Assembly (NCBI RefSeq): GCF_001243045.1
Contig: NZ_LN849007.1
Span: 400,989 to 464,988, forward strand
Source: Clostridium niameyense
GTDB taxonomy: Bacteria > Bacillota > Clostridia > Clostridiales > Clostridiaceae
Direction: 5' to 3'
DNA length: 64,000 bases
This document shows positions 1 to 51,196 of this stretch, piece after piece. Every line of letters begins with the position of its first letter. The stretch's first letter is position 1. The notes beneath the pieces are model-generated. The model had not been told where the DNA came from. It did not search any database and was given only the letters and a program-made list of their open reading frames with translations. The translations under genes and the position numbers were made by a program.

Positions 1-531
1 TAGTGTCCACCCACCACAATTATTAGAATTATCAGTGGCTTCACTTGTTACAGGAAATTCAGCTACTGAATATTTAGCACTCATGCTTTTTTTTATTTCA
101 TTTGTAACTACTGAATAGCAACTATAGAATACTACATCTTTAGTTTTATCTGTAAAATAAGTTTTATCTTGAAAAATATATTCTGTAGGGTAAGGTGGGT
201 CTACGGCTTTTAATCTTACATTATTTGAAACTGGAGGTATTCGATTTTCACCTGGAACTTTGCAACATCCTCCCCAAGATAGTATTGCAAATGCCACATC
301 ACATCCTTTAGGAATGCTTAATGTAGCTGTAGAAGAATCGAATGAATAATTTAATGTTGTATAAGGTGGATAAGTTGCAACTTGGAGATAATCAAGATGA
401 CTCATAAGTGCACCTATAGAATTGGCAGTACCTGCATCTTGAGAATTGTCTTTTTTACTTAATCCAATTGCATTTCCAGTAAAAGTAATGCCACCATTAA
501 TATTTTGAGAAAAAATTAAATCAGTAGCCAT
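1..531 (-). CDS. DUF11-type spore-surface-like protein, paralogue 1 (partial, C-terminus off window)
   Basis: An open frame runs from an ATG at 531 to the left edge without a stop, so the C-terminal part is missing. An AAGGAG-type ribosome site precedes the start. About 177 residues are visible. They align with the N-termini of the two proteins encoded at 722-2443 and 2428-4227: all share FTGN..GLSK near residue 20, a DSIGA/NSIGA block and an NNC(C/G)GWTL motif. No function is proven for this N-terminal module. A sigma-K-like promoter lies just upstream (584-611), which suggests late mother-cell expression. It is separated from the next minus-strand unit by a terminator, so it is its own transcript. 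Confidence 0.75.
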   Translation of the reverse strand, partial: MATDLIFSQNINGGITFTGNAIGLSKKDNSQDAGTANSIGALMSHLDYLQVATYPPYTTLNYSFDSSTATLSIPKGCDVAFAILSWGGCCKVPGENRIPPVSNNVRLKAVDPPYPTEYIFQDKTYFTDKTKDVVFYSCYSVVTNEIKKSMSAKYSVAEFPVTSEATDNSNNCGGWTL

Positions 532-583
532 GCAATACTCCTTTCAAATATTATTTATATGCTTATAAGGCTTTGATTTAATA

Positions 584-611
584 TATTTTATGATATAAGA
601 ATGATAAGGTG
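584..611 (-). promoter_or_regulatory. putative sigma-K promoter for the gene starting at 531
   Basis: Reading the minus strand, AC (610-609) is followed after 16 nt by CATAAAATA (592-584). This matches the sigma-K pattern AC-N16/17-CATAnnnTA, and the -10 lies 53 nt before the ATG. The match is by eye; no scoring was possible. Confidence 0.5.
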
Positions 612-643
612 TTAGATAAAGCGTAATTAAAGATAGATACTAA

Positions 644-683
644 ATTAGCCCTTTTATATTATTTATAATATAAAAGAGCTAAT
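644..683 (-). terminator. terminator after the DUF11 operon
   Basis: A long inverted repeat (TTAGC...TTTTATATTA, loop, TAATATAAAA..GCTAA) lies 40-80 nt beyond the stop codon at 722. It closes the two-gene minus-strand operon and insulates the gene starting at 531. Confidence 0.7.
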
Positions 684-721
684 TACATAATATTTATTAT
701 TAGTAAAATAATATTTTTCTT

Positions 722-2443
722 TTAAAAAAATTGATTTTTGCAACATTTCAAGTCTAAAGTCTTAGGAAAATCCTTTACTGTTATATTTACTACTGAAATA
801 GTTGAACCAGTTCCAGGAGCCTCATCAGCAATTAGCACAGAGAATGAATCTTCTCCTACAAAGTCTACATTTGGGGTATATATCCAACTTCCATCAGAAT
901 TAATATCTACAAAACCATTTTTACAATCACTAGCTAGTGTATAAGTTAATGAGTAATCAGTAGGGGTAACAGCAAGAATCATTCCATTTACAGGATTATT
1001 TTTATAAGTGGTTTCTTTAAAAGTAGAAGAAATAGGATTTAATACTGAAAAAGTAGCTCCTACCTTAGTAGGTTTAGCACTTACAATCCCAGTAAATGAA
1101 CCTCCACTATTTGTAAAATTGTAAGTTGCAGTAGGAGTAAGTGTATATAAAGGTTTATTAGAAGGAAGATGAAGAACATAAGCACTAAAAGTATAAGTTT
1201 CTGTAGCGGATGCTGCTAAAGTAGGATATGAAGGAAAAGTAGTAGTAGTTACCATATTGTTTTTATCATAAGATAAACCATCTGGAAGACTCCAACTTAA
1301 AGAAACATTTGTGGCAGGAGTGGTAGTACTTTTGTTAGTAGTAGTTATTGTGTATTCTATAGTACTACCTACAACAGCTAACTCAGAGTCAGAGCTCACA
1401 GTTAAAGATATATCTGGAGCATTTATATCAAATTGTACTGCAAATGCATTTAACAGATAAGAATCATTAGTAGTCATGAATTTTGTAATTGCAGAAGTTT
1501 GATTATTAGTTAAAAGCTTTGAAACATCAACAGAGGTTATATCTAATCCTTGACGACCACCTACTATATTTTCAGTAGATAAAATATTTTGATTCCTATT
1601 ACCGAAGGTACCACTAATATCAGTGTTACCAGTACTATCATTAATCTGTGAACCAAAGAAGTTATTACTTAAATTTTTAGGACCAGATAAGTTAGTTGTA
1701 GTAGCTGCTGTGGCTCCAAATAAGACTTGATCTCCAGTTACATCAGCACTTCCATGCAGAGCGCTTATAAAAATTTTTCCATTATGATCTCCAGTTGTAG
1801 GAGTTTGAAAACCTAATGAAGATATATCAATTGTGTGTAAAGGACGTATAAAATCTGAAGCTGTAAATAACTTTAAATATCTAGAAGGCAAATTTGGGTT
1901 TTCATATACAACTGCTAAAGTCCAACCACAACAATTATCGGTAGAATTTGTTGGTGACGTTGTACCAATTACATTGCCAACTGTATAAGTTCCACCTAAA
2001 GATTCTTTTACATATTTAGTAACGTTGGCTGAACATATATAGTAACCAATGTCCTCTATAATGGATGAATCCAGAGTGTTAGAAGTTATTTTGTGTATAG
2101 TTGTTGGTGCAGTTGGAGTTGAAAAATTTATTGGTGTATCTAATATATTATAATAATTTTGACTATCTACTTTCCATGTACCACCCCAAATTAAATCTGA
2201 ATACAGTATTTTACTTCCGGAAGGTATATTTAAAACTGCAGATGAAGAATTATTACTAATATCTAAAGTAGTTCCACTAGGGTAAGTTGGAACATTTATA
2301 AGAGAATTAGTAGTTATAAATGCGCCTATTGAATCGGAGGTGCCAATACTTTGGCTATTGGCTTGTTTACTTAAACCTAAAGTATTACCTGTAAATACAA
2401 TTCCACCATTAGTTGTAGTACTAAAAATTAAATGTAATGACAT
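722..2443 (-). CDS. DUF11/Ig-like repeat protein, paralogue 2
   Basis: 573 residues, no signal peptide and no membrane segment. Layout: a conserved N-terminal module (about 1-330, with FTGNTLGLSK, DSIGA and NCCGWTLAVVYEN), a DUF11-type beta-sandwich (about 340-460, DISLTVSSDSELAVVGSTIEYTIT region) and a C-terminal cadherin/Ig-like domain (about 470-560, with GSWIYTPNVDFVGEDSF). Thr/Ser/Asn-rich composition suits an extracellular or surface protein. The absence of a signal peptide fits a mother-cell spore-coat or exosporium protein rather than a secreted one. Its start overlaps the end of the upstream paralogue by 16 nt, so the two are cotranscribed. The function is unproven. Confidence 0.8.
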   Translation of the reverse strand: MSLHLIFSTTTNGGIVFTGNTLGLSKQANSQSIGTSDSIGAFITTNSLINVPTYPSGTTLDISNNSSSAVLNIPSGSKILYSDLIWGGTWKVDSQNYYNILDTPINFSTPTAPTTIHKITSNTLDSSIIEDIGYYICSANVTKYVKESLGGTYTVGNVIGTTSPTNSTDNCCGWTLAVVYENPNLPSRYLKLFTASDFIRPLHTIDISSLGFQTPTTGDHNGKIFISALHGSADVTGDQVLFGATAATTTNLSGPKNLSNNFFGSQINDSTGNTDISGTFGNRNQNILSTENIVGGRQGLDITSVDVSKLLTNNQTSAITKFMTTNDSYLLNAFAVQFDINAPDISLTVSSDSELAVVGSTIEYTITTTNKSTTTPATNVSLSWSLPDGLSYDKNNMVTTTTFPSYPTLAASATETYTFSAYVLHLPSNKPLYTLTPTATYNFTNSGGSFTGIVSAKPTKVGATFSVLNPISSTFKETTYKNNPVNGMILAVTPTDYSLTYTLASDCKNGFVDINSDGSWIYTPNVDFVGEDSFSVLIADEAPGTGSTISVVNITVKDFPKTLDLKCCKNQFF

Positions 2444-4227
2444 GATTCAACACCTACCTTAGGAAAAATAATTTTGTTTACTTTAAGATTTATAGGATTT
2501 TGATATTTAAATACATCTTTTACAATTATAGTTATAGTACAAATGGAAGAATCCCCATTACTATCTGTAACTGATGTAGAGAAGGTATCTGTACCTGTAA
2601 AACCTACCTTAGGAGTATATAACCAACTTCCATCTAAATTAACATTTGAAAATCCATTAGTAGGATTGGAAGCTAATTTATAACTCGATATAGTTGTAGT
2701 AGAACTTATAGCACGTAATTTACCTGTGACCGGAGTGTTTTTATAAGTTATTGCTTGGACATTAGGAAGTAAAGGAGGAAGTAAGAATGCTGAAGTTTCT
2801 GTAGACAACGAATTACTTTGAGTAAGGCCCTGAATAAATCCAATTGTTGATTGAAAATTATAAGTTAACCTAGCTGAATTTGAATATGATGATTTGTCAT
2901 ATGGAAAATCTGTTGCGGTAACATTAAATGTTATTTTTATAGTAGTACCAGGAGCAATAGTACCAAGTTTAACACCATCTTCAATATTTTCAGTAGAGGC
3001 CTTACTATCAACTGTTAAACTATTTGGTACGAAATTCAAACCTTGAGGTAAAGTATCTTTTAATAAACAATTATTTGCAGGAATAGATCCAGTGTTATTT
3101 ATAGTTATTGAATAAGGAAATACAGTATCATTAGGAATAACAAAATCTTCAGTAGATGATTTTGTTATAGTAAATACAGGGGCATTTATATCAATTTGAG
3201 TACCAATGGCATTAGGAAGGTAGGTATCATCAGTAGTAACAAACTTTACTGTAGCAGATGTTTGAGAAGGTGTTAAAGCAGATGTTATATCTATATTAGT
3301 AATGTCTAATCCTTGACGACCACCAATTATATTAGTACCTACATCACTTCCAGTTGTTGCAACAATTTGATTTTGGCTGCCAAAGGTCCCCAGAATATCC
3401 ATTAAACCTTTAGAATTATTAATCTGAGAACCGAAAAAGTTATTAACAGGATTATTAGTTCCAGATAAAGCATTTAAATTATCAGCATCAGGACCAAACA
3501 AAACTTGATCACCAGATATATTTGCATCTCCTTCAAGAGCACTTACAAGTATTCTACCATGGGTAGGTCCTGTCGAAGGCGTTGTAAATCCTGAAATAGA
3601 TATAGAAGACGAAGATGTTGAATCTATAAATTCTCCACCTACAAATAAATTTAAGTTTCTATAAGGTAATGTTGAATTTTTGTATACTACAGCAAGAGTC
3701 CATCCACAACAGTTGTTATTATTTGTAGGAGAAGTAGTTCCAACAACATTACCAACAGTGTAAGTTCCACTCAAGGCTTCAGTAACATAGTTAGTAATAT
3801 TAGCAGAATTAGAATATAAATAAGTGTCGTTATAATTAAATGATGAATCCTGAATTTCAGGGTATATTTTTATAATGTCTGATGAAGAATTAGGTATTGT
3901 CAAATCTATAGGATTCTTTAAATAATTTGTATAGTCTTCTCCAGAAACTTTATAAGTTCCACCCCAAATTAATTGTGCATATAATATGGTACTTTCATCA
4001 GGTATATTAAGCACAGCAGAAGAAGAGTTGCTAAAATAAGCTAGAGTAGTTCCAGGAGGATAAGGGTATGTGGGAATATTAATTTTAGAGTTAGTACTTA
4101 TAAAGGCACCGATTGAATCAGAGGTTCCAGCATTTTGACTATTAGGTGCTTTACTAAGGCCTAATGTGTTTCCTGTAAATACTATAGCACCTGTAGTAGT
4201 AGTACTAAATATATTATTAAATGACAT
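2428..4227 (-). CDS. DUF11/Ig-like repeat protein, paralogue 3
   Basis: 599 residues with the same layout as its downstream neighbour: conserved N-terminal module (FTGNTLGLSK, DSIGAFISTNS, NCCGWTLAVVYKN), DUF11-like domain at about 350-460 (SITINNTGSIPANNC then LPQGLNFVPNS) and a C-terminal Ig/cadherin-like domain with GSWLYTPKVGFTGTDTF. No signal peptide or transmembrane helix is visible. AAAGGAG precedes the ATG. It is the first gene of a two-gene operon read from a sigma-K-like promoter at 4284-4311. The tail after the last domain (ends near VGVESCHYI) overlaps the next gene. Inference: a spore-surface structural protein. Confidence 0.8.
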   Translation of the reverse strand: MSFNNIFSTTTTGAIVFTGNTLGLSKAPNSQNAGTSDSIGAFISTNSKINIPTYPYPPGTTLAYFSNSSSAVLNIPDESTILYAQLIWGGTYKVSGEDYTNYLKNPIDLTIPNSSSDIIKIYPEIQDSSFNYNDTYLYSNSANITNYVTEALSGTYTVGNVVGTTSPTNNNNCCGWTLAVVYKNSTLPYRNLNLFVGGEFIDSTSSSSISISGFTTPSTGPTHGRILVSALEGDANISGDQVLFGPDADNLNALSGTNNPVNNFFGSQINNSKGLMDILGTFGSQNQIVATTGSDVGTNIIGGRQGLDITNIDITSALTPSQTSATVKFVTTDDTYLPNAIGTQIDINAPVFTITKSSTEDFVIPNDTVFPYSITINNTGSIPANNCLLKDTLPQGLNFVPNSLTVDSKASTENIEDGVKLGTIAPGTTIKITFNVTATDFPYDKSSYSNSARLTYNFQSTIGFIQGLTQSNSLSTETSAFLLPPLLPNVQAITYKNTPVTGKLRAISSTTTISSYKLASNPTNGFSNVNLDGSWLYTPKVGFTGTDTFSTSVTDSNGDSSICTITIIVKDVFKYQNPINLKVNKIIFPKVGVESCHYI

Positions 4228-4283
4228 AAGTCAATATCTCCTTTCTTTAGATGTAATATTTATTTGAATATATAAATCTAATA

Positions 4284-4311
4284 TATATTATGAAGTTTTA
4301 AAAATTAAGTT
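4284..4311 (-). promoter_or_regulatory. putative sigma-K promoter for the two-gene DUF11 operon
   Basis: Minus strand: AAC (to 4309), 16 nt, then CATAATATA (4292-4284). The -10 and its following bases (TTCATAATATATATT) are the same as those upstream of the gene starting at 10021. Confidence 0.55.
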
Positions 4312-4420
4312 TCTATATTTTAAAAATAATTATTGAATATAGGGTACGAAAAATGAGTAACATTAATATAATATAGTGATGTATGAATATATTTAAATAT
4401 TTAAAGAGGTGAGTATTAAT

Positions 4421-5242
4421 TTGGATACTAAATTATCTTCAGAAAATTATTTCAATGAATGTATGATAGGTATGAAGGTTTATGATATTTGTAGACAACA
4501 AGATTGTTTAGTACCTACCCTTAATAAAGATTTTCAAGAATCAGGAAAAATACCTATAGATCCAGCAAGAAATGGTACCCAACTTCCTGTAGAAATATTA
4601 AGTCAAGATAAAATGAGTTCAGTTACTATACAACCCAATGATTTATTTCGTCTTAAAGGATTAGTTTCAGATTTGAAAATTGTTCCTGATAGTTTAGAAA
4701 CAACAATAACAGTAAACAGTATAACTAAGAGTAGCTGCTTAGGAGAGGGGTATTGGGATGTATCAATACAGTATAGATTTAATTATGCTATACAACTTTT
4801 TTATGCAAATGATGAATTAGCACATGTATTTATATTAGGTAAGCCTGCCAATGCAATTCAAGCATATAGCGTATATAAAAAACAAGTCACATTATATGGA
4901 GGAAAAGGTGTAAAAGGAGTAGTTAATTGTTTCAGTATATTTCCTAATTTTAATGGAATGAAACCTACACATTTTATACAAGCTAAAGCCGATATATTGT
5001 CAGCTAAAGTTGTTGAATTACCAGAAAATCAATGTAATCCTGATCCCGAAACTTGTACTGCCGTATGTGTAACTATAGGATTATTTACTATAATAGCTTT
5101 AGGAAGAATAGTAAAATATAATAATCTTTCTTTAGGACCTTGCAATATACCTGAATGTGATCAAGAAATACCTGTTATACCTTGCGAATTATTTAATGAA
5201 CTTCCATTTCCATTTGAAGAATTTGATCCTGAGAATGAGTAA
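4421..5242 (+). CDS. cysteine-rich protein, paralogue A (candidate spore-surface protein)
   Basis: 273 residues from a TTG start at 4421, chosen because AAAGAGGTGA lies 8 nt upstream; an in-frame GTG at 4409 overlaps that ribosome site. It has 11 cysteines, concentrated in an N-terminal block (MKVYDICRQQDCL) and a C-terminal block (GPCNIPEC...IPC, then PFPFEEFDP). A similar protein is encoded at 8163-9041, sharing MKVY..CRQQDCL, VTIGLFTII and the GPC.IP.C end. There is no signal peptide; VTIGLFTIIAL is hydrophobic but short. It lies 19 nt before a cysteine desulfurase gene, so the two are probably cotranscribed. Function unknown; cysteine-rich self-assembling exosporium/coat proteins are a plausible analogy, not a demonstrated homology. 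Confidence 0.8.
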   Translation: MDTKLSSENYFNECMIGMKVYDICRQQDCLVPTLNKDFQESGKIPIDPARNGTQLPVEILSQDKMSSVTIQPNDLFRLKGLVSDLKIVPDSLETTITVNSITKSSCLGEGYWDVSIQYRFNYAIQLFYANDELAHVFILGKPANAIQAYSVYKKQVTLYGGKGVKGVVNCFSIFPNFNGMKPTHFIQAKADILSAKVVELPENQCNPDPETCTAVCVTIGLFTIIALGRIVKYNNLSLGPCNIPECDQEIPVIPCELFNELPFPFEEFDPENE

Positions 5243-5261
5243 ATTTAAATAAGGAGAAACT

Positions 5262-6401
5262 ATGATATATTTAGATAATGCAGCCACTAGTTTTCCAAAA
5301 CCCAATGAAGTTTATCATGAGGTTTTAGATTGCATGAAAAATTATTGCGCTAATCCCGGGAGAGGTTCTTATAGTATGGCAATAAAGGCAGAAGAAAAGA
5401 TAATGGAATGCAGAGAAAGAATTTGTGATTTATTTAATATTAAAGATAGTATGAATGTAGTATTTACAAGTAATGCAACTGAAAGTTTAAATATTGCAAT
5501 AAAAGGAATCTTAAGACCGGGAGATCATGTAATAAGTAGTTATATAGAACATAATTCGGTTTTAAGGCCTATAAATACTATGAAAAGTAAGGGAACAGAC
5601 GTTACGTTGGTAAAGGTTAATAAGGAAGGATATATAGATTTAAAAGAATTAGAAGATGCAATAAAATATAACACTAAAGCAATAATAATAAATCACTCAT
5701 CCAATGTATTAGGAACTGTACAGGATATAGAAAAAATAGGTAAGATAGCTAATGAAAATAATATTATCTTTATTGTAGATGCATCTCAAAGTGCAGGAAA
5801 TATACCTATAGATGTAATAAAATCTAATATAGATATACTGGCCTTCCCAGGACATAAATGTCTGTTAGGTCCACAAGGGGTGGGAGGATTATATATTAGT
5901 AATAATATAGAGATTGCTCCTTATACAGAAGGAGGAACTGGAAGTGAGTCTGAACACATGTGTCAGCCTAATTTTTTACCAGATAAATTTGAAAGTGGTA
6001 CCAAAAACACCCCAGGAATTGTGGGGTTATGTGAAGGATTAAAATTTATAAAAAGAGTTGGCATAGAAAATATAAGAAGACATGAAATGTATTTATGTAA
6101 ATATTTAATAGAGTGTTTAAGTGAACTTCCTAATATAACTATATATGGACATACAAATTTTAAAAGTAGAACTTCTGTTGTATCTTTTAATATTAAAAAT
6201 ATAGATAGTTCTTATGTTGGATATATATTAAACAAGAGTAGTATTTGTGTTAGAACAGGATATCATTGTGCACCATTAATTCATAGTATAATAGGTACTA
6301 GAAATAAGGGTACTGTAAGAGTAAGTCCTGGATATTTTAATACAAAAAAAGATATAGGACTATTAGTAGAACAAATTAAAAAAGAACTAGAGGTCACATA
6401 G
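5262..6401 (+). CDS. cysteine desulfurase family protein (NifS/SufS-like, EF2568 type)
   Basis: 379 residues of a fold-type I PLP aminotransferase class V enzyme, which takes sulfur from L-cysteine to form a protein persulfide and alanine. Visible hallmarks: N-terminal YLDNAATSFPKP, NHSSNVLG, the DASQSAG aspartate region, the PLP lysine K199 in FPGHKCLLGPQG, and the persulfide cysteine C336 in RTGYHCAPL. Length is normal. It resembles the short-loop family often named cysteine desulfurase EF2568, known from selenium/molybdenum hydroxylase neighbourhoods. Here it lies 19 nt after a cysteine-rich protein gene, an odd partner. It could supply sulfur, or oxidatively modify its neighbour; both are guesses. 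Confidence 0.88.
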   Translation: MIYLDNAATSFPKPNEVYHEVLDCMKNYCANPGRGSYSMAIKAEEKIMECRERICDLFNIKDSMNVVFTSNATESLNIAIKGILRPGDHVISSYIEHNSVLRPINTMKSKGTDVTLVKVNKEGYIDLKELEDAIKYNTKAIIINHSSNVLGTVQDIEKIGKIANENNIIFIVDASQSAGNIPIDVIKSNIDILAFPGHKCLLGPQGVGGLYISNNIEIAPYTEGGTGSESEHMCQPNFLPDKFESGTKNTPGIVGLCEGLKFIKRVGIENIRRHEMYLCKYLIECLSELPNITIYGHTNFKSRTSVVSFNIKNIDSSYVGYILNKSSICVRTGYHCAPLIHSIIGTRNKGTVRVSPGYFNTKKDIGLLVEQIKKELEVT

Positions 6402-6416
6402 TGTATCTCTAGTTCT
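6383..6416. terminator. hairpin between convergent genes
   Basis: A 10-bp stem (AGAACTAGAG / CTCTAGTTCT) has the stop codon of the desulfurase gene in its loop. It lacks a clear U-run, so it may be a weak or bidirectional terminator. Confidence 0.45.
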
Positions 6417-6420
6417 CATA

Positions 6421-8007
6421 CTAATTAATACCAAAAAATTTTTTTAATAAAGATGAATTTTGTTTATTTATAAATTTATTTTTTGTATTATTAAGTTCAT
6501 CAGTTAAATAGAAAATTTTTTCTTCATAATTTTTCAATTTACTATTTAAGTCATCTATAATAATTTTATACTCTTCTATTTCTTTTTCAAAATTATTTTT
6601 ATTTTCCAGAGTTATGCTTTTGGACAATTCTAAATCAGAAAAATTTTTCTTGAACTCAGAAATAACTTTATTTTTTTCTAATAGTAAAGTAGTTAGTTCA
6701 TTTATTTTATAATTATTTACTTCTAAATTCGATTTTTCATTTAATAAAGTATCATATTTTTGCTTTAGAGAGGAATAATTAGCTTGTATGTTATTTAGTT
6801 TATTAAACAACACTGATGATCTACTTCTTTCGTTTTGTATGAGTGAACTTAGTTGATTAATTATTTCATTTTTATTTAAAATTTCTTCTTTATAGGAAGA
6901 AAAGTTATCTTTTATATTAGTAATACATTTATTTTGTTTTCTGGGAATGTGTTCTTTATATTTAAAGTTATGATTTAATTCATAACTTTTTTTTATTGAA
7001 ATAGATAGCGTAGTTGGGAAAAACGTTAATCCGTTATCAGGAGTAATATATAAATGATTTGTGCAAGCATATTTATTATTAAATTTTTCATTATGATAAA
7101 AATAAGCAGTTTTTAATAAAGATTTAGGCAAAGGCTCTTTTTTCAAAACGCTTACATTTAAACCATTGTCTTTAGAAAAACAACTATAAATAGAATTATT
7201 ATTAATCCACATATCCCAAATAGTATCTTTTAATTTAAAAAAGCAAGGCAAGACTATATCCTTCGAGTTTTTAAATATAGTAATATAATTTAGATCTAAA
7301 AATAATCCAGAACAATGGATTAGTAGGTTTTGTGAATTATCATTTTTTATATATAAGATGTGGATTGTATTATTATTACAGCACAATGAGAAATTTTTAT
7401 ATGGTTTTAAATTTTTATCTATTGTATAGCAATCTGACCATTTACAATTTTGATGATTAAATAGTTTATATACTAATTCATAATCTTTAACTAATTTTTC
7501 ATATAGAACTACAAAGCTTCCATCATCTAATATGTTTATATCAAATGGCTTATGGGCATTAATTATATTATTATCTATAACAATAGGTTCAGAAAGATTA
7601 AATTTTGAATTAATTGTTTGATAAAAAAGGATTTGAGTAGAGTCGGATGTCAAATTGATACTATAAAAAATATGAATAGTATCATGATAATAAAAAGCTT
7701 TTATATTTGCCTTCTTAATTGAAGTTCCTTTCCATTTAAGAATTTTTTTATGAGTCCATGTTTTATTTGAAAAAACACTCATTACAATATTTCCGTTAGT
7801 TTTTTGATATATTAAACATAGTTTATTTTTAGGAAGAGGTAATACAGTAAAAGAATTATTACACTGTTTTTCTAAAATAGAAGCGTTAGACCATTTATTA
7901 TTAATAAGTTGTCTATAGACAATGCCAAATTTCGAATTGTATGTTATATTCCATAAATTTTTGTTAGACATTCTTATTGTATAGAAGTCATTATTTAAAA
8001 ATTCCAT
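6421..8007 (-). CDS. hypothetical protein: beta-rich N-terminus, C-terminal coiled coil
   Basis: 528 residues, unrecognised. Residues 1-290 are beta-rich with repeated W/F-K-turn segments (NKWSNASI, NKTWTHKKI, CKWSDCYTI) roughly 45-50 residues apart, suggestive of a propeller-like or lectin-like fold. Residues about 365-515 are a long heptad-like coiled coil rich in Asn, Lys, Glu and Leu. There is no signal peptide. Such a head-plus-rod build would suit a filament or spore appendage component, but this is inference only. Upstream is a possible sigma-E promoter (GAATTTT, 14 nt, CATATATT). It sits between the two cysteine-rich protein genes, on the opposite strand. Confidence 0.7.
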   Translation of the reverse strand: MEFLNNDFYTIRMSNKNLWNITYNSKFGIVYRQLINNKWSNASILEKQCNNSFTVLPLPKNKLCLIYQKTNGNIVMSVFSNKTWTHKKILKWKGTSIKKANIKAFYYHDTIHIFYSINLTSDSTQILFYQTINSKFNLSEPIVIDNNIINAHKPFDINILDDGSFVVLYEKLVKDYELVYKLFNHQNCKWSDCYTIDKNLKPYKNFSLCCNNNTIHILYIKNDNSQNLLIHCSGLFLDLNYITIFKNSKDIVLPCFFKLKDTIWDMWINNNSIYSCFSKDNGLNVSVLKKEPLPKSLLKTAYFYHNEKFNNKYACTNHLYITPDNGLTFFPTTLSISIKKSYELNHNFKYKEHIPRKQNKCITNIKDNFSSYKEEILNKNEIINQLSSLIQNERSRSSVLFNKLNNIQANYSSLKQKYDTLLNEKSNLEVNNYKINELTTLLLEKNKVISEFKKNFSDLELSKSITLENKNNFEKEIEEYKIIIDDLNSKLKNYEEKIFYLTDELNNTKNKFINKQNSSLLKKFFGIN

Positions 8008-8043
8008 AAAGAACTCCTTTTTAAAATTACTTTTTATAGAATA

Positions 8044-8073
8044 TATGATTATTTGTATTTAAAAATTCATATA
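8044..8073 (-). promoter_or_regulatory. possible sigma-E promoter for the coiled-coil protein gene
   Basis: On the minus strand GAATTTT is followed after 14 nt by CATATATT. This is close to the sigma-E pattern (kmATATT, about 14 nt, CATACAmT), with one mismatch in the -35 and two in the -10. In such AT-rich DNA chance matches are possible. Confidence 0.3.
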
Positions 8074-8162
8074 AATTTTTTCATATATATCACATAAATT
8101 TGGAAAAAACATATTATGTTATTAGGGATTATATATTAATAATTATTTATAGGAGGATATAT

Positions 8163-9041
8163 ATGGAAGAAAATTTAGATGTAAAAAGTTTGCCTAAAGC
8201 TGATGATACCCCAACTCCAACTGATCAATGTGTAATAGCTATGAAGGTTTATGGAAAATGCAGGCAACAAGATTGTTTAAAACCAGATTTTCTTGTACCG
8301 GGAGCTGGCGGAGATTCAATACCTATAAATGCCTCAAGATGTGGAGAAGAAGCAAAAATCCTTAAAATTGGATCAAGTACAATGACAACACCTATACAAC
8401 AAGGTGGTATAGTAACATTTGCACCTAATATTGTAAGTAGTGCCCAGATAGTGGAAGGTAGTTTTGTAGTATCAGATATTAAAATATCAAACATACAGGC
8501 ACAAAACTTATTTGTATCAGATGGGTACTGGAATGTTACTATAAAATATAGATTTAGTTATAGGTTAAATTTATTAGATGCAACAGGCGCAATTTTAAAC
8601 ATAGGATTAGGGCCTGATGCGGATGTAACTAAGACTCAAAATTATATTTGTGCATATAGTGAATATGAAAAACAAGTATTGTTATTTGGTGGAGAGGGAG
8701 GAAAGGACGTAGTTCTAGCTTCTAATTTATTTTCAAATAGTGGTCCATATTCCTACCAAAATGCACCATATGGATTAGTAGAGGCAAAATCAATGCCGCT
8801 TGCGGTAAATGTTGGTACAGTTAACAATCCATGTGCTGCTCAACAATGTGGAAATACTATAATAGGTGTTACTATTGGATTATTTACTATAATTAAGTTA
8901 TTTAGACTTGTAAATACAACAATGTTAACTAATGGACCATGTGATATACCAGTATGTAATCCTATAGTTCCAGGAGATCCATGTTCATTTTTTAATGAAA
9001 TACCATTCCCATTTGAAGATTTTGATCCAGCCTCTAAGTAG
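8163..9041 (+). CDS. cysteine-rich protein, paralogue B (candidate spore-surface protein)
   Basis: 292 residues from the ATG at 8163, placed 7 nt after TAGGAGG; an upstream in-frame ATG at 8100 has no ribosome site. Ten cysteines. It shares with the protein at 4421-5242 the N-terminal MKVYGKCRQQDCLKP block, a central GYWNVTIKYRF segment, VTIGLFTII, and a C-terminal GPCDIPVC...DPC..FNEIPFPFEDFDP. The middle is beta-rich and no signal peptide is present. A terminator follows at 9066. Paralogy with the other cysteine-rich protein is clear by eye. The role is not known; disulfide-cross-linked spore layer protein is the leading guess. Confidence 0.8.
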   Translation: MEENLDVKSLPKADDTPTPTDQCVIAMKVYGKCRQQDCLKPDFLVPGAGGDSIPINASRCGEEAKILKIGSSTMTTPIQQGGIVTFAPNIVSSAQIVEGSFVVSDIKISNIQAQNLFVSDGYWNVTIKYRFSYRLNLLDATGAILNIGLGPDADVTKTQNYICAYSEYEKQVLLFGGEGGKDVVLASNLFSNSGPYSYQNAPYGLVEAKSMPLAVNVGTVNNPCAAQQCGNTIIGVTIGLFTIIKLFRLVNTTMLTNGPCDIPVCNPIVPGDPCSFFNEIPFPFEDFDPASK

Positions 9042-9065
9042 ATATATTAAAATAATTATTTATAT

Positions 9066-9106
9066 AAAACTGTTGATAACTAATAGTATTGTCAACAGTT
9101 TTTTTT
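9066..9106 (+). terminator. intrinsic terminator
   Basis: AAAACTGTTGA / TCAACAGTTTT stem followed by a run of eight T, 25 nt after the stop of the cysteine-rich protein gene. The same stem sequence recurs at 33017-33051. Confidence 0.85.
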
Positions 9107-9168
9107 ATTTAATTATAAAGAACACATTTATAATTTTTAAAATACTATAATTAATGGAGGTGGAGAAT

Positions 9169-9429
9169 ATGAATAATATATGCATAGCTGTTTTTAATTC
9201 ATCATCAAATAGTATTCATATGTTCAAAATATTAAAAGATCAAAGGTTAAAAGTGGAACTCATGTCAACTCCATGTACTATAGCATCTAGCTGCTCTAGA
9301 GCTATAAAATTCTCTTTAAATGATTTAGAGCGAGTAATAAAAGTTATAGAGGAATATAAAATAAATATTAAAGGTATATATGAGAGGGTATATTCTGGGA
9401 ATAGATTTTTTTATAAAAAGGTTTATTAA
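9169..9429 (+). CDS. DUF3343 family protein (putative Se/S carrier-like)
   Basis: 86 residues from the ATG at 9169; the in-frame ATG at 9154 lies inside the GGAGGTGG ribosome site. The pattern fits DUF3343: a short beta strand (CIAVFNSSSNSIHMFK), a strand of ELMSTPC, then SSC followed by an amphipathic helix ending in a ...VIKVIEEYKINIKGIYE segment. Cys36 and Cys42 (STPCTIASSC) correspond to the conserved P(R)..SSGC region of the family. DUF3343 proteins are usually found with selenium or sulfur-transfer genes; an EF2568-type desulfurase lies 2.8 kb upstream. Family call is moderately confident; no biochemical role is established here. Confidence 0.65.
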   Translation: MNNICIAVFNSSSNSIHMFKILKDQRLKVELMSTPCTIASSCSRAIKFSLNDLERVIKVIEEYKINIKGIYERVYSGNRFFYKKVY

Positions 9430-9473
9430 ATAATGAAAGGACTATCTAATATTAGATAGCCCTTTCATTATTT
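9428..9473. terminator. bidirectional terminator between convergent genes
   Basis: A near-perfect palindrome: AAATAATGAAAGG, one A/C mismatch, CTATCTAAT and the complementary arm. It begins at the stop of the DUF3343 gene and ends just before the stop of the minus-strand gene at 9476. The flanking A/T runs serve both directions. Confidence 0.85.
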
Positions 9474-9475
9474 AA

Positions 9476-10021
9476 TTATTGATTATTATTTGGAACTTCT
9501 ATTAAAGTAAAAGAGTATAAATCATTTGCTTGTAAACCAGCCGTTTGTGTAGCATTTACAAGTCCTGGAGTATAAAGGTTAAAAGTATAATTTATTGTAG
9601 CACCTGGACAAGCGATAGCAGAATTAGGTGTACTACAAATATCAGGACACATTGATGGTGCTGGTCTTGCATCTAACCAATCAAATCCAAAGTGATTATT
9701 AAAAGCTAAATTAGCAGTATAAGCTATATTTTTAGCTTGAAATTCTGTTTGATATATAATTGTTTGAACGCCATCTACTGGACGGGTTACTTGTAAATAT
9801 ACTGGACCAATTTGTGTACCTGCAGCAGTGTCTGCTATACTACAAGTTGCATATGCGCATATTAAAACAGAACTATTAACATTATTTAAAGTTATAGGAA
9901 GAGATGCTATTTGTTCAGTTGATGCTGTAGTTCCTGAAACGGTAATTGGTGTAGTAGTTATTTTTTGTGATATATTTTGAATATTATTAGTACCAGTTCC
10001 TATAGTTAAATTTTGTGGCAA
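9476..10021 (-). CDS. hypothetical beta-rich protein with paired cysteines
   Basis: 181 residues starting at a TTG (10021-10019), selected because AGGAGG lies 8 nt upstream. The N-terminus is Thr/Ile/Gln-rich (KITTTPITVSGTT). The remainder alternates beta strands and turns, with an LICAYATCS pair, an MCPDICS pair and a lone Cys in AIACPG. This resembles a jelly-roll-like surface protein, but no family is recognised with confidence. There is no signal peptide. A perfect sigma-K-like -10 (CATAATATA) with AC 17 nt upstream sits at 10053-10080. Inference: late mother-cell protein deposited on the spore. Confidence 0.7.
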   Translation of the reverse strand: MPQNLTIGTGTNNIQNISQKITTTPITVSGTTASTEQIASLPITLNNVNSSVLICAYATCSIADTAAGTQIGPVYLQVTRPVDGVQTIIYQTEFQAKNIAYTANLAFNNHFGFDWLDARPAPSMCPDICSTPNSAIACPGATINYTFNLYTPGLVNATQTAGLQANDLYSFTLIEVPNNNQ

Positions 10022-10052
10022 AATTATTACCTCCTTTGTAGGCTATTCAATA

Positions 10053-10080
10053 TATATTATGAAATTTTATTGTAGTGTGT
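10053..10080 (-). promoter_or_regulatory. putative sigma-K promoter for the gene starting at 10021
   Basis: Minus strand: AC (10080-10079), 17 nt, CATAATATA (10061-10053). A second AC gives 15 nt spacing. The -10 context is the same as upstream of the gene starting at 4227. Confidence 0.55.
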
Positions 10081-10176
10081 TACAAAAGAGAATATCAATA
10101 ATTGAGCATTTAGTAAGTTTTTAAATTAATTACTTGTTTTTAAGATTGAAAATTTAATAATTATTCCATAAAAATT

Positions 10177-10713
10177 TTAATATAGTTGTTCAATTAATCC
10201 GCAAGCAATTCTTTTTCCAGAGTTTCCAGAAGGTTGACTTCTATAATCATCAGGGTTTTCATGTATTATTACTGATAAACCTATTATATCTTTAGGCTTA
10301 AATCTGTCTGTGAAGAAACTCATTTTACATATTCCATGGTTAGAGAATAAAACGGGAAAATCACCAGCATGATTGCCATGAGGTTGATTATCGGGATTCC
10401 AATGGCCACCTGCGCAGGTGAAAGGATTATTAGGAGTACCTATATCACAACAACCTACAGAATGAATGTGAAATCCAAAAGGACCTATAGGTTGGGAAGT
10501 TGGAGTTGCTGGTTTATAATTTGGAAGTCCTTGAATTGATACTGAAACTTCCGTTCCACCTAATACAGGGTAAAAATAGACTATTCCTTTTAAATTGGGA
10601 TTGTTAGGTCCCCCATTTATATAAGATACTGCAATAATGTTATTTGTAGATGGATGATTAAACTTCCTATACCAAGGATTATATTCATAATTAGAATATG
10701 AATCAAAATACAT
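10177..10713 (-). CDS. Cu/Zn superoxide dismutase family protein
   Basis: 178 residues. The start is the ATG at 10713, placed after TGGAGGTATATTAT; the longer in-frame start at 10770 has no ribosome site. The family dismutates superoxide to H2O2 and O2. Visible ligands: GFHIHS (two Cu His), the GGHWNP His, QPHG and NHAGDFP (Zn/bridging His and Asp), and the Cu His in VIIHENPDD. A Cys in VGCC and one in GKRIACGLI would form the family disulfide. No signal peptide is visible, unusual for a bacterial Cu/Zn SOD, most of which are periplasmic or lipoproteins. This and a sigma-K-like promoter (10747-10775) fit a spore-surface enzyme. Confidence 0.9.
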   Translation of the reverse strand: MYFDSYSNYEYNPWYRKFNHPSTNNIIAVSYINGGPNNPNLKGIVYFYPVLGGTEVSVSIQGLPNYKPATPTSQPIGPFGFHIHSVGCCDIGTPNNPFTCAGGHWNPDNQPHGNHAGDFPVLFSNHGICKMSFFTDRFKPKDIIGLSVIIHENPDDYRSQPSGNSGKRIACGLIEQLY

Positions 10714-10746
10714 ATAATATACCTCCATAAAACTTAGATAATAATA

Positions 10747-10775
10747 TATTCTATGCAAAGGTATTTTCACATGTT
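10747..10775 (-). promoter_or_regulatory. putative sigma-K promoter for the Cu/Zn SOD gene
   Basis: Minus strand: AAC (10775-10773), 17 nt, GCATAGAATA with CATA at 10755-10752 and TA at 10748-10747. It includes the G that often precedes the sigma-K -10. Confidence 0.55.
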
Positions 10776-50101: not shown

Positions 50102-51196
50102 ATGAAAATATTGCAAGTTATAACGGGAAATGATAATGGTGGTGGAGGAAAACACGTTTTAAATATTTGTACAGGTTCTAATAAATATTTTGAAACTGTT
50201 TTAGGATGTATTGGGAAAGGAGATCTTTATGAAAGGGCTAAATCTATGGGAGTAAAAACTAAATTATTTACTTTAAAGTCTATTATAAATGGTGAGCTGC
50301 AACGATATGTAAAAGATAATAATATAAATATTGTTAACTTTCATGGAGCAAAAGCTTTTTTTGCTCATAGTTTTATACATAATAAAATAAATATCCCTAC
50401 AGTAGCAACAATACATAGTGATTATAAAAGAGATTTTATGAACAATAAATTTAAGTATTATTTTTTTACACCATTAAGTATAAAAGGTATAAAAACCTTT
50501 AAAAATTACATATGCGTATCTAATTATATAAAAAATATGTTGATAAAAGATAATATTTCCGGGGAAAAGTTTATAGTTAATAATGGTATAGATATAGATT
50601 CTATTAGACCCTGTAAAGATAAAAATAAACTAATAAAAGAGCTAGATTTAAATGAAAAAGATTTTATATATATAATGGTAGCAAGAATGCATCCTATAAA
50701 AAATCATAAATCTTTAATAGAGGCATTTTCTAAATTATGTAGGGAATATGATGATGTAAAATTATTGCTTGTAGGAGATGGGGTAGAAGAAGAAAATTTA
50801 AAATCTCAAGTGCAAAATTTAAAAATAAGTAATAAAGTTAAATTTATAGGATTTAAAGATAACGTATTGGAATATATAAATTTAAGTGATATAAGTTTAT
50901 TAACTTCTTTTAATGAAGGAGGTGCTCCACCACTTGTAATATTAGAAAGTGGTGCTTTAAATGTACCAGTTATTGCATCTAATGTATCGGATATTCCCAA
51001 AACCATAAATGGTAACAATGGTTTTCTAATTGATCCTAATTCAGTTGATAGTATTTATAATAAAATGAGAGAAGCATACATTAGTAAAGATAAGTTAAAA
51101 GAATTGGGATTTAATTTATATAAAGATGTAGTTAATAATTATTCTATAGATAATTTTTGTAAGAGTTATTATAATTTTTACAAAAGTTTAATTTAA
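50102..51196 (+). CDS. glycosyltransferase family 4
   Basis: 364 residues. ITGNDNGGGGKHVLNI at the N-terminus, VARMHPIKNHKSLIEAFSKL linking, LLLVGDGVEEENL, and donor site FNEGGAPPLVILESGALNVPVIAS (E-x7-E with the second Glu in LES). Retaining GT-B enzyme of the glycan assembly; substrate unknown. Followed 18 nt later by murJ. Confidence 0.9.
   Translation: MKILQVITGNDNGGGGKHVLNICTGSNKYFETVLGCIGKGDLYERAKSMGVKTKLFTLKSIINGELQRYVKDNNINIVNFHGAKAFFAHSFIHNKINIPTVATIHSDYKRDFMNNKFKYYFFTPLSIKGIKTFKNYICVSNYIKNMLIKDNISGEKFIVNNGIDIDSIRPCKDKNKLIKELDLNEKDFIYIMVARMHPIKNHKSLIEAFSKLCREYDDVKLLLVGDGVEEENLKSQVQNLKISNKVKFIGFKDNVLEYINLSDISLLTSFNEGGAPPLVILESGALNVPVIASNVSDIPKTINGNNGFLIDPNSVDSIYNKMREAYISKDKLKELGFNLYKDVVNNYSIDNFCKSYYNFYKSLI

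Follow-up and report, generated by a model that had tools for sequence, protein, structure and literature searches.

The first 10.8 kb of a 64,000-nucleotide (nt) stretch of Clostridium niameyense DNA (the window) very probably form the U32-peptidase-proximal part of a csxA-type exosporium locus driven by the mother-cell sigma factor sigma-K. This interval, hereafter the island, comprises ten genes (Table 1). A sequence-only reading had proposed it as a spore-surface gene island controlled by sigma-K-like promoters. We defined the strict motif as AC, a spacer of 16 or 17 nt and CATAnnnTA, and scanned the 120 nt located 5' of each of the 51 window genes. The motif was found upstream of four genes, starting at 531, 4227, 10021 and 10713 (A531, C4227, I10021 and J10713), which are all among the ten island genes, and upstream of none of the 41 other genes. 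The four sites have a perfect -10, as the sequence-only reading had stated. Its claim that they lie within about 60 nt of the gene starts holds for I10021 and J10713, but not for A531 and C4227, where the whole sites extend to -79 and -83. The 15-base context that it had noted in two units, TTCATAATATATATT, occurs twice in the window, solely at the promoters of C4227 and I10021 (expected number 0.02), and none of 100 shuffles held two copies. B2443 lacks a motif of its own; because it overlaps the end of the C4227 gene, the two probably form one operon.

Chance CATAnnnTA boxes in AT-rich intergenic DNA, combined with a selective choice of units, might account for such a pattern. The window is 73% A+T, and in speaking of all four minus-strand units the sequence-only reading was right about the four it named but had omitted F8007, a minus-strand unit of 528 residues with 11 cysteines (Cys), which has no motif. 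Across both strands of the whole window there are 11 copies of the strict motif, seven of which lie outside the 120-nt upstream stretches. Its chance per 100 nt is 0.0038 under a Markov model of all upstream regions and 0.0087 under a model of the four motif-bearing regions themselves. Four random matches among 51 genes would all fall in the ten island genes with a probability of about 0.0008 (210/249,900).

We searched for relatives of the island genes in 206 Clostridiaceae genomes. The strict motif precedes 19 orthologues of the superoxide dismutase (SOD) gene J10713 in 30 loci fetched, with the -10 at -37 to -42, and 26 of the 32 gene calls related to the Cys-rich genes (30 loci fetched). 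It is present at 6 of 10 I10021-like genes, three more having AC-N17-CATAnnnTG, and at 7 of 17 loci encoding the N-terminal domain of the DUF11 proteins; the Cys-rich and DUF11 counts keep a few shortened or doubtful gene calls (for instance L044 and the 99-residue frame of L053). Once similar upstream regions were removed, the motif was kept in 32 of 50, compared with 0-4 of 50 for seven scrambled motifs. The spacing between AC and 40 CATAnnnTA boxes peaks sharply at 16 nt (22 cases) and 17 nt (10 cases), with 0-6 cases at other spacings, and the distance from motif to start is similar across diverged orthologues. In 28 long loci, the motif precedes 14 of 348 genes unlike those of the island, and seven of these 14 are small genes near a Cys-rich gene. 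In the same loci it was not found before U32 (0/8), mutS2 (0/7), the genes with closest likeness to the desulfurase (0/22) or the F8007 family (0/14), and it precedes 3 of 19 Se/S carrier relatives. The absence of the motif from the 41 non-island genes, its similar distance in diverged relatives, the spacing peak and the scrambled motifs thus already contradict a chance origin, which we reject as almost certainly wrong. The conserved, putative sigma-K sites before the CsxA-like family are new.

Alternatively, these mother-cell genes could be read mainly by sigma-E, whose -10 nearly equals that of sigma-K. In several clostridia sigma-K is also reported to act early, which makes the division between the sigma-E and sigma-K programmes less sharp (PMC5749712). 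Start-site mapping in C. difficile associates AC with sigma-K and ATA with sigma-E (PMC3789822). Among the 40 boxes before SOD and Cys-rich relatives, 32 have AC at 16 or 17 nt, whereas none has the sigma-E -35 ATA at 15-18 nt; in four-position stretches elsewhere, ATA is present in 35 of 148. No sigma-E pattern was found upstream of the four motif-bearing window genes. We rejected a main role of sigma-E as improbable, and sigma-K remains the preferred factor.

From 40 distinct strict sites before the SOD (17) and Cys-rich (23) genes of relatives, all of them outside the window, we derived a matrix and scored the 51 window genes with it, taking p values from 20,000 Markov sequences. The training families include those of J10713 and G8163, but not those of A531, C4227, I10021 and H9169. 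The core letters of the training sites were given by the strict pattern, but the free positions are conserved too: the fourth base after AC is T in 92%, and the seventh -10 base is A in 95%. The seven best-scoring genes (p from 0.0007 to 0.014) are I10021, A531, H9169, C4227, gene 50102, J10713 and G8163, six of which belong to the island. The plus-strand site of G8163, missed by the sequence-only reading, is one base off: its CATATTATG deviates in the last base, as do CATATTATG and CATAATATG in its closest relatives (L025, L026). The sigma-K interpretation extends to this Cys-rich gene. Upstream matches no better than those of AT-matched regions had been proposed as a finding that would speak against the island; the Markov, matrix and scrambled-motif comparisons did not refute it.

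Synteny points to a csxA-type locus. In C. sporogenes, csxA is found in an interval bounded by zapA and a U32-peptidase gene, together with a divergent partner and with genes for collagen-like proteins and glycosyltransferases (PMC7333573). The CsxA protein assembles by itself into an array cross-linked by disulfides (PMC7333573), and CsxA-mCherry expressed from the native promoter is visible solely in sporulating cells (PMC13293322). Like the csxA cluster of C. sporogenes and C. botulinum group I (PMC4942563, PMC7333573), the island adjoins a U32-peptidase gene, and it contains a Cys-rich gene of about 290 residues, G8163, divergent from a conserved open reading frame (ORF), F8007. The window includes the U32 side of the zapA-U32 interval; both sides are recognised by Pfam in genomes G190 and G006. 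The order in G190 is pheS, pheT, zapA, an F8007 homologue, the divergent Cys-rich gene, others including a glycosyltransferase gene, U32 and mutS2 (Pfam identifies ZapA, PheT and PheS beside the Cys-rich gene in G190, and ZapA in G146). In G006 (C. homopropionicum), zapA is followed by a Cys-rich gene and a gene for a 97-residue protein, both with the motif, further genes, a gene for a collagen-like BclA_C protein, glycosyltransferase genes, the cysteine desulfurase and Se/S carrier genes, an I10021-like gene with the motif, a glycosyltransferase gene, another gene, the SOD gene with the motif, U32 and mutS2. BclA-type proteins form the exosporium nap in Bacillus (PMC4942563); the G006 interval therefore holds a recognised exosporium protein together with gene families of the window. 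The island differs from the csxA cluster in having two paralogues with 10-11 Cys instead of 25, in holding DUF11/Big_9 proteins, an SOD, a small beta-rich protein, a cysteine desulfurase and an Se/S carrier, and in the absence of a collagen-like gene from the part of the island inside the window, where no glycosyltransferase gene was seen either. Conservation of the motif in relatives, the preference for AC (32/40) over ATA (0/40) and the place in a csxA-type locus together support the sigma-K exosporium island of the sequence-only reading.

Several observations weigh against this assignment. The strict motif is lacking from 11 of 30 SOD, 10 of 17 DUF11 and 6 of 32 Cys-rich relatives, and in the 28 gene-called long loci it precedes two of four SOD genes and none of three DUF11 relatives. 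Within the island, the strict scan and the matrix gave no recognisable sigma-K site before F8007 or D4421 (matrix p=0.14 for D4421). G8163 has 10 Cys versus 25 in C. sporogenes CsxA, and the likeness of G8163 and D4421 to CsxA is one of locus and description. The zapA side and any collagen-like gene fall outside the window. Table 1 of PMC4942563, a selection of C. sporogenes exosporium proteins, contains no Cu/Zn SOD or DUF11 protein, and according to PMC7333573 the csxA-bcl cluster accounts for all identified exosporium proteins encoded at this position in C. sporogenes.

The two Cys-rich paralogues announced by the sequence-only reading are both present and share 37% identity, although their Cys content is modest. 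Family matches were found in 37 of the 206 genomes, and the relatives range from 6 to 27 Cys. We name G8163 and D4421 CsxA-like rather than CsxA because they have 10 and 11 Cys, not 25 (lengths of 292 and 273 residues versus about 299). No 25-Cys CsxA-type gene adjoining U32 was found in the best 30 U32 loci, a plasmid search with G8163 gave no match, and neither the Cys-rich nor the small beta-rich profile matched a PDB sequence below E 0.2. An AlphaFold model of G8163, computed with nine other sequences, had a mean predicted local distance difference test score (pLDDT) of 47.7, and Foldseek gave no PDB match at E <= 0.001. No Pfam family scored above cutoff for F8007. Read by eye, seven genomes have an F8007 homologue next to the Cys-rich gene and divergent from it (G144, G141, G143, G146, G145, G190 and G007, the G007 match being weak); the homologue is near but not divergent in G164, G165 and G166, and in G005 another ORF lies between. 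F8007 thus appears, from its position, to be the counterpart of the csxA divergent partner. A Cys-free protein of 97 residues (MATTxNFDxP...) with the strict motif is encoded directly behind the CsxA-like gene at L133:6199-6492 and L135:12384-12677, and represents a further small family of this locus.

I10021 is a remote member of a small beta-rich family found near CsxA-like genes. A single-sequence search with I10021 in the 206 genomes returned no match, nor did BLASTP against the L002 protein or hhalign against the four L001-L004 proteins. In contrast, a hidden Markov model (HMM) of nine rows, made from beta-rich proteins of the Cys-gene loci, retrieved I10021 as the best outsider among 539 proteins (E 4.7e-6, versus 2.7 with five rows and 0.00075 with seven). 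Its score was 21.4 bits, compared with a best of 12.0 in 1960 scored shuffles. A profile including I10021 matched 11 of the 206 genomes, one marginally, and all ten clear ones hold a Cys-rich gene; nine of these ten had supplied profile rows, so that G006 is the sole independent find. The small beta-rich family is new. AlphaFold modelled I10021 alone with a mean pLDDT of 54.1. A fold likeness to the phage lambda tail tip (two Foldseek PDB matches at E <= 0.001, TM-score 0.27) was discarded because of this poor model. As the G8163 and I10021 models are both poor, the Foldseek outcomes are uninformative and no fold is claimed.

A531, B2443 and C4227 are paralogues that share a conserved N-terminal domain, followed in B2443 and C4227 by DUF11 and Big_9 domains; A531, cut by the window end, is 39% identical to C4227 over the part within the window. 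Relatives of the N-terminal domain occur in 16 of the 206 genomes, where many of the reading frames encode about 2,700 residues. The DUF11/Big_9 proteins of the island and the small beta-rich proteins might be vegetative surface proteins with an unusual export, the SOD and Cys-rich genes alone being spore genes. DUF11 is found in cell-envelope proteins of many prokaryotes (PMC5749712), and its relatives here have the motif in just 7 of 17 loci. A sigma-70 scan of the region did not discriminate, its 87 matches not exceeding those in shuffles (mean 75.1, standard deviation 9.8). However, N-terminal hydrophobicity agrees with the absence of signal peptides claimed by the sequence-only reading: judged by the highest 12-residue Kyte-Doolittle mean, A531, B2443, C4227, D4421, F8007, G8163, I10021 and the SOD have no hydrophobic N-terminal segment (maxima 0.16-1.38). 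A531, C4227 and I10021 are moreover preceded by the strict motif, and the ten clear I10021-like genomes, nine of them sources of profile rows, hold a CsxA-like gene. In G039, a DUF11 N-domain gene lies near Cys-rich genes bearing the motif (347 residues with 23 Cys; 332 residues with 20 Cys). We consider a vegetative role highly improbable and rejected it in favour of the sigma-K exosporium locus.

Two known systems resemble the DUF11 part of this locus. The appendage cluster of C. taeniosporum (CRD1, CRD2, P29a/b, GP85) encodes DUF11 proteins, including CRD1 (564 residues) and CRD2 (413 residues), and has five predicted sigma-K promoters, each with at most one deviating base (PMC5749712). It differs in that three of these five lie inside reading frames (PMC5749712), and counterparts of P29 and of the collagen-like GP85, judged by description, were not seen in the island. 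In F-Anchor-3/F-ENA of Clostridia, a proposed exosporium fibre anchor, DUF11 is joined to a CsxA-like domain (PMC11952670), whereas in the window both parts are separate proteins; the F-ENA domain DUF4183 is absent from the ten island proteins scanned at E 0.1. In G191 and G192, four tandem genes for 103-107-residue, 8-Cys proteins lie near a DUF11 N-domain gene (L137:5044-6760, L138:4572-6254), and possibly encode further spore-surface proteins.

The Cu/Zn SOD announced for the island is confirmed by Pfam and by the presence of GFHxH, HxGD and a late His, which we take to be the metal-ligand motifs of this enzyme. SOD matches were found in 44 of the 206 genomes. Where a signal peptide would be expected, J10713 has a tyrosine (Tyr)-rich tail, MYFDSYSNYEYNPWYRKFNHPST, and no signal-like segment. 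Tails of at least 10 residues are present in 24 of 30 relatives, for all of which the start positions were recomputed (that of L081 is poorly supported). Tyr represents 20.9% of the 564 tail residues pooled over the 30 relatives, compared with 4.5% for the 25 N-terminal residues encoded by 567 other genes and 2.9% for the core of the SOD (window protein plus 29 relatives, L076 left out). None of the matches listed in the open-access literature deals with a Tyr-rich SOD of clostridial spores or with csxA as a sigma-K-controlled gene. The apparently signal-less, Tyr-tailed SOD is new and unusual at the sequence level. As a putative spore-surface enzyme it is comparable to Bacillus SodA, an Mn superoxide dismutase tied to the spore surface, from which it differs by its Cu/Zn type and by carrying a Tyr-rich tail of its own at the N-terminus. 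Spore-coat SodA of Bacillus has a reported part in cross-linking coat proteins (Henriques 1998, cited in PMC3533761).

Each Cys-rich gene of the island is followed by one sulfur gene: D4421 by the cysteine desulfurase gene E5262, and G8163 by the Se/S carrier gene H9169. In relatives such as L001-L004 the two sulfur genes adjoin each other. Among the matches listed, and by eye, no more than about 15 kb separate the Se/S carrier gene from the Cys-rich gene in 23 of the 25 genomes whose Cys-rich match has E < 1e-20; in G051 the carrier is on another contig, and G069 is absent from the genomes with a carrier match. Some Se/S carrier relative is present in 152 of the 206 genomes, and presence alone is therefore not specific. 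The linkage of carrier and Cys-rich genes could be explained by common ancestry of the zapA-U32 region, without a function. As embedded genes, this predicted sulfur-trafficking pair is new at the island.

We infer the following scheme from motifs, synteny and protein families. In late sporulation, mother-cell sigma-K would transcribe the C4227-B2443 operon, A531, G8163, I10021 and J10713. The products would need no signal peptide because they would be made in the cytoplasm of the mother cell, within which the forespore lies; signal-less mother-cell proteins can reach the spore surface directly. In this cytoplasm they would assemble by self-association and disulfides, with the CsxA-like proteins probably forming a lattice at the base. 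The DUF11 proteins and the small beta-rich proteins would add decoration or fibres, and the SOD would serve as a surface enzyme. A further idea, which we consider rather unlikely, is that the Tyr-tailed SOD and the sulfur genes jointly make the island a self-contained exosporium cross-linking kit of an anaerobe. At first oxygen contact, the SOD in the spore surface would convert superoxide into peroxide driving tyrosine cross-linking, while the cysteine desulfurase and Se/S carrier would provide the persulfide sulfur with which the CsxA-like lattice is cross-linked through disulfides or polysulfides.

A clostridial spore makes contact with host and environment through its exosporium, the components of which are known for few species. 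The locus provides a conserved promoter signature and a recurring gene set (CsxA-like, DUF11, the small beta-rich family, the Tyr-tailed SOD and the sulfur-trafficking pair) that may serve for predicting spore-surface proteins throughout the Clostridiaceae. With this locus it also becomes testable why strict anaerobes would place a Cu/Zn SOD under a late-sporulation promoter.

Table 1. Genes and candidate sigma-K sites of the island, its boundary gene and a collagen-like gene of a relative. Positions refer to the window unless a locus is given.
Feature	Position	Strand	Description
A531	1..531	-	N-terminal part of third DUF11/Big_9 surface-protein paralogue, cut by window end
B2443	722..2443	-	573 residues; conserved N-domain, DUF11 and Big_9; Pfam PF01345 2.1e-8, PF17963 6.4e-9
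C4227	2428..4227	-	599 residues; architecture as B2443; Pfam PF01345 3e-9, PF17963 2.4e-9
D4421	4421..5242	+	Cys-rich CsxA-like paralogue 2; 273 residues, 11 Cys (4.0%)
E5262	5262..6401	+	Cysteine desulfurase family protein, directly behind D4421; TIGR01977 3.6e-155, above cutoff
F8007	6421..8007	-	528 residues, 11 Cys; C-terminal part coiled-coil-like; divergent from G8163
G8163	8163..9041	+	Cys-rich CsxA-like paralogue 1; 292 residues, 10 Cys (3.4%)
H9169	9169..9429	+	Se/S carrier-like protein; PF11823 1.5e-18
I10021	9476..10021	-	181 residues, beta-rich, TTG start; remote member of small family near CsxA-like genes
J10713	10177..10713	-	Cu/Zn SOD; 178 residues, Tyr-rich N-terminal tail; PF00080 2.7e-28
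K10886	10886..13231	+	U32-family peptidase, boundary gene of csxA cluster, then mutS2; PF01136 1.1e-99
Sigma-K-like promoter of A531	584..610	-	AC-N16-CATAAAATA; full site ACCTTATCATTCTTATATCATAAAATA; -10 at -61
Sigma-K-like promoter of C4227-B2443	4284..4310	-	AC-N16-CATAATATA; full site ACTTAATTTTTAAAACTTCATAATATA; -10 at -65
Sigma-K-like promoter of G8163	8092..8118	+	AC-N16-CATATTATG, last base deviates; matrix p=0.014
Possible sigma-K-like site of H9169	9122..9149	+	AC-N17-AATACTATA, one base off; matrix p=0.0022
Sigma-K-like promoter of I10021	10053..10080	-	AC-N17-CATAATATA; full site ACACACTACAATAAAATTTCATAATATA; -10 at -40
Sigma-K-like promoter of J10713	10747..10774	-	AC-N17-CATAGAATA; full site ACATGTGAAAATACCTTTGCATAGAATA; -10 at -42
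Collagen-like protein with BclA_C domain, C. homopropionicum zapA-U32 interval	L133:13632-14450	-	PF18573 1.7e-21, PF01391 3.8e-16

Outside the island, the plus-strand gene at 50102-51196 had the fifth-best matrix score of the window (p 0.0065), with an imperfect -10.

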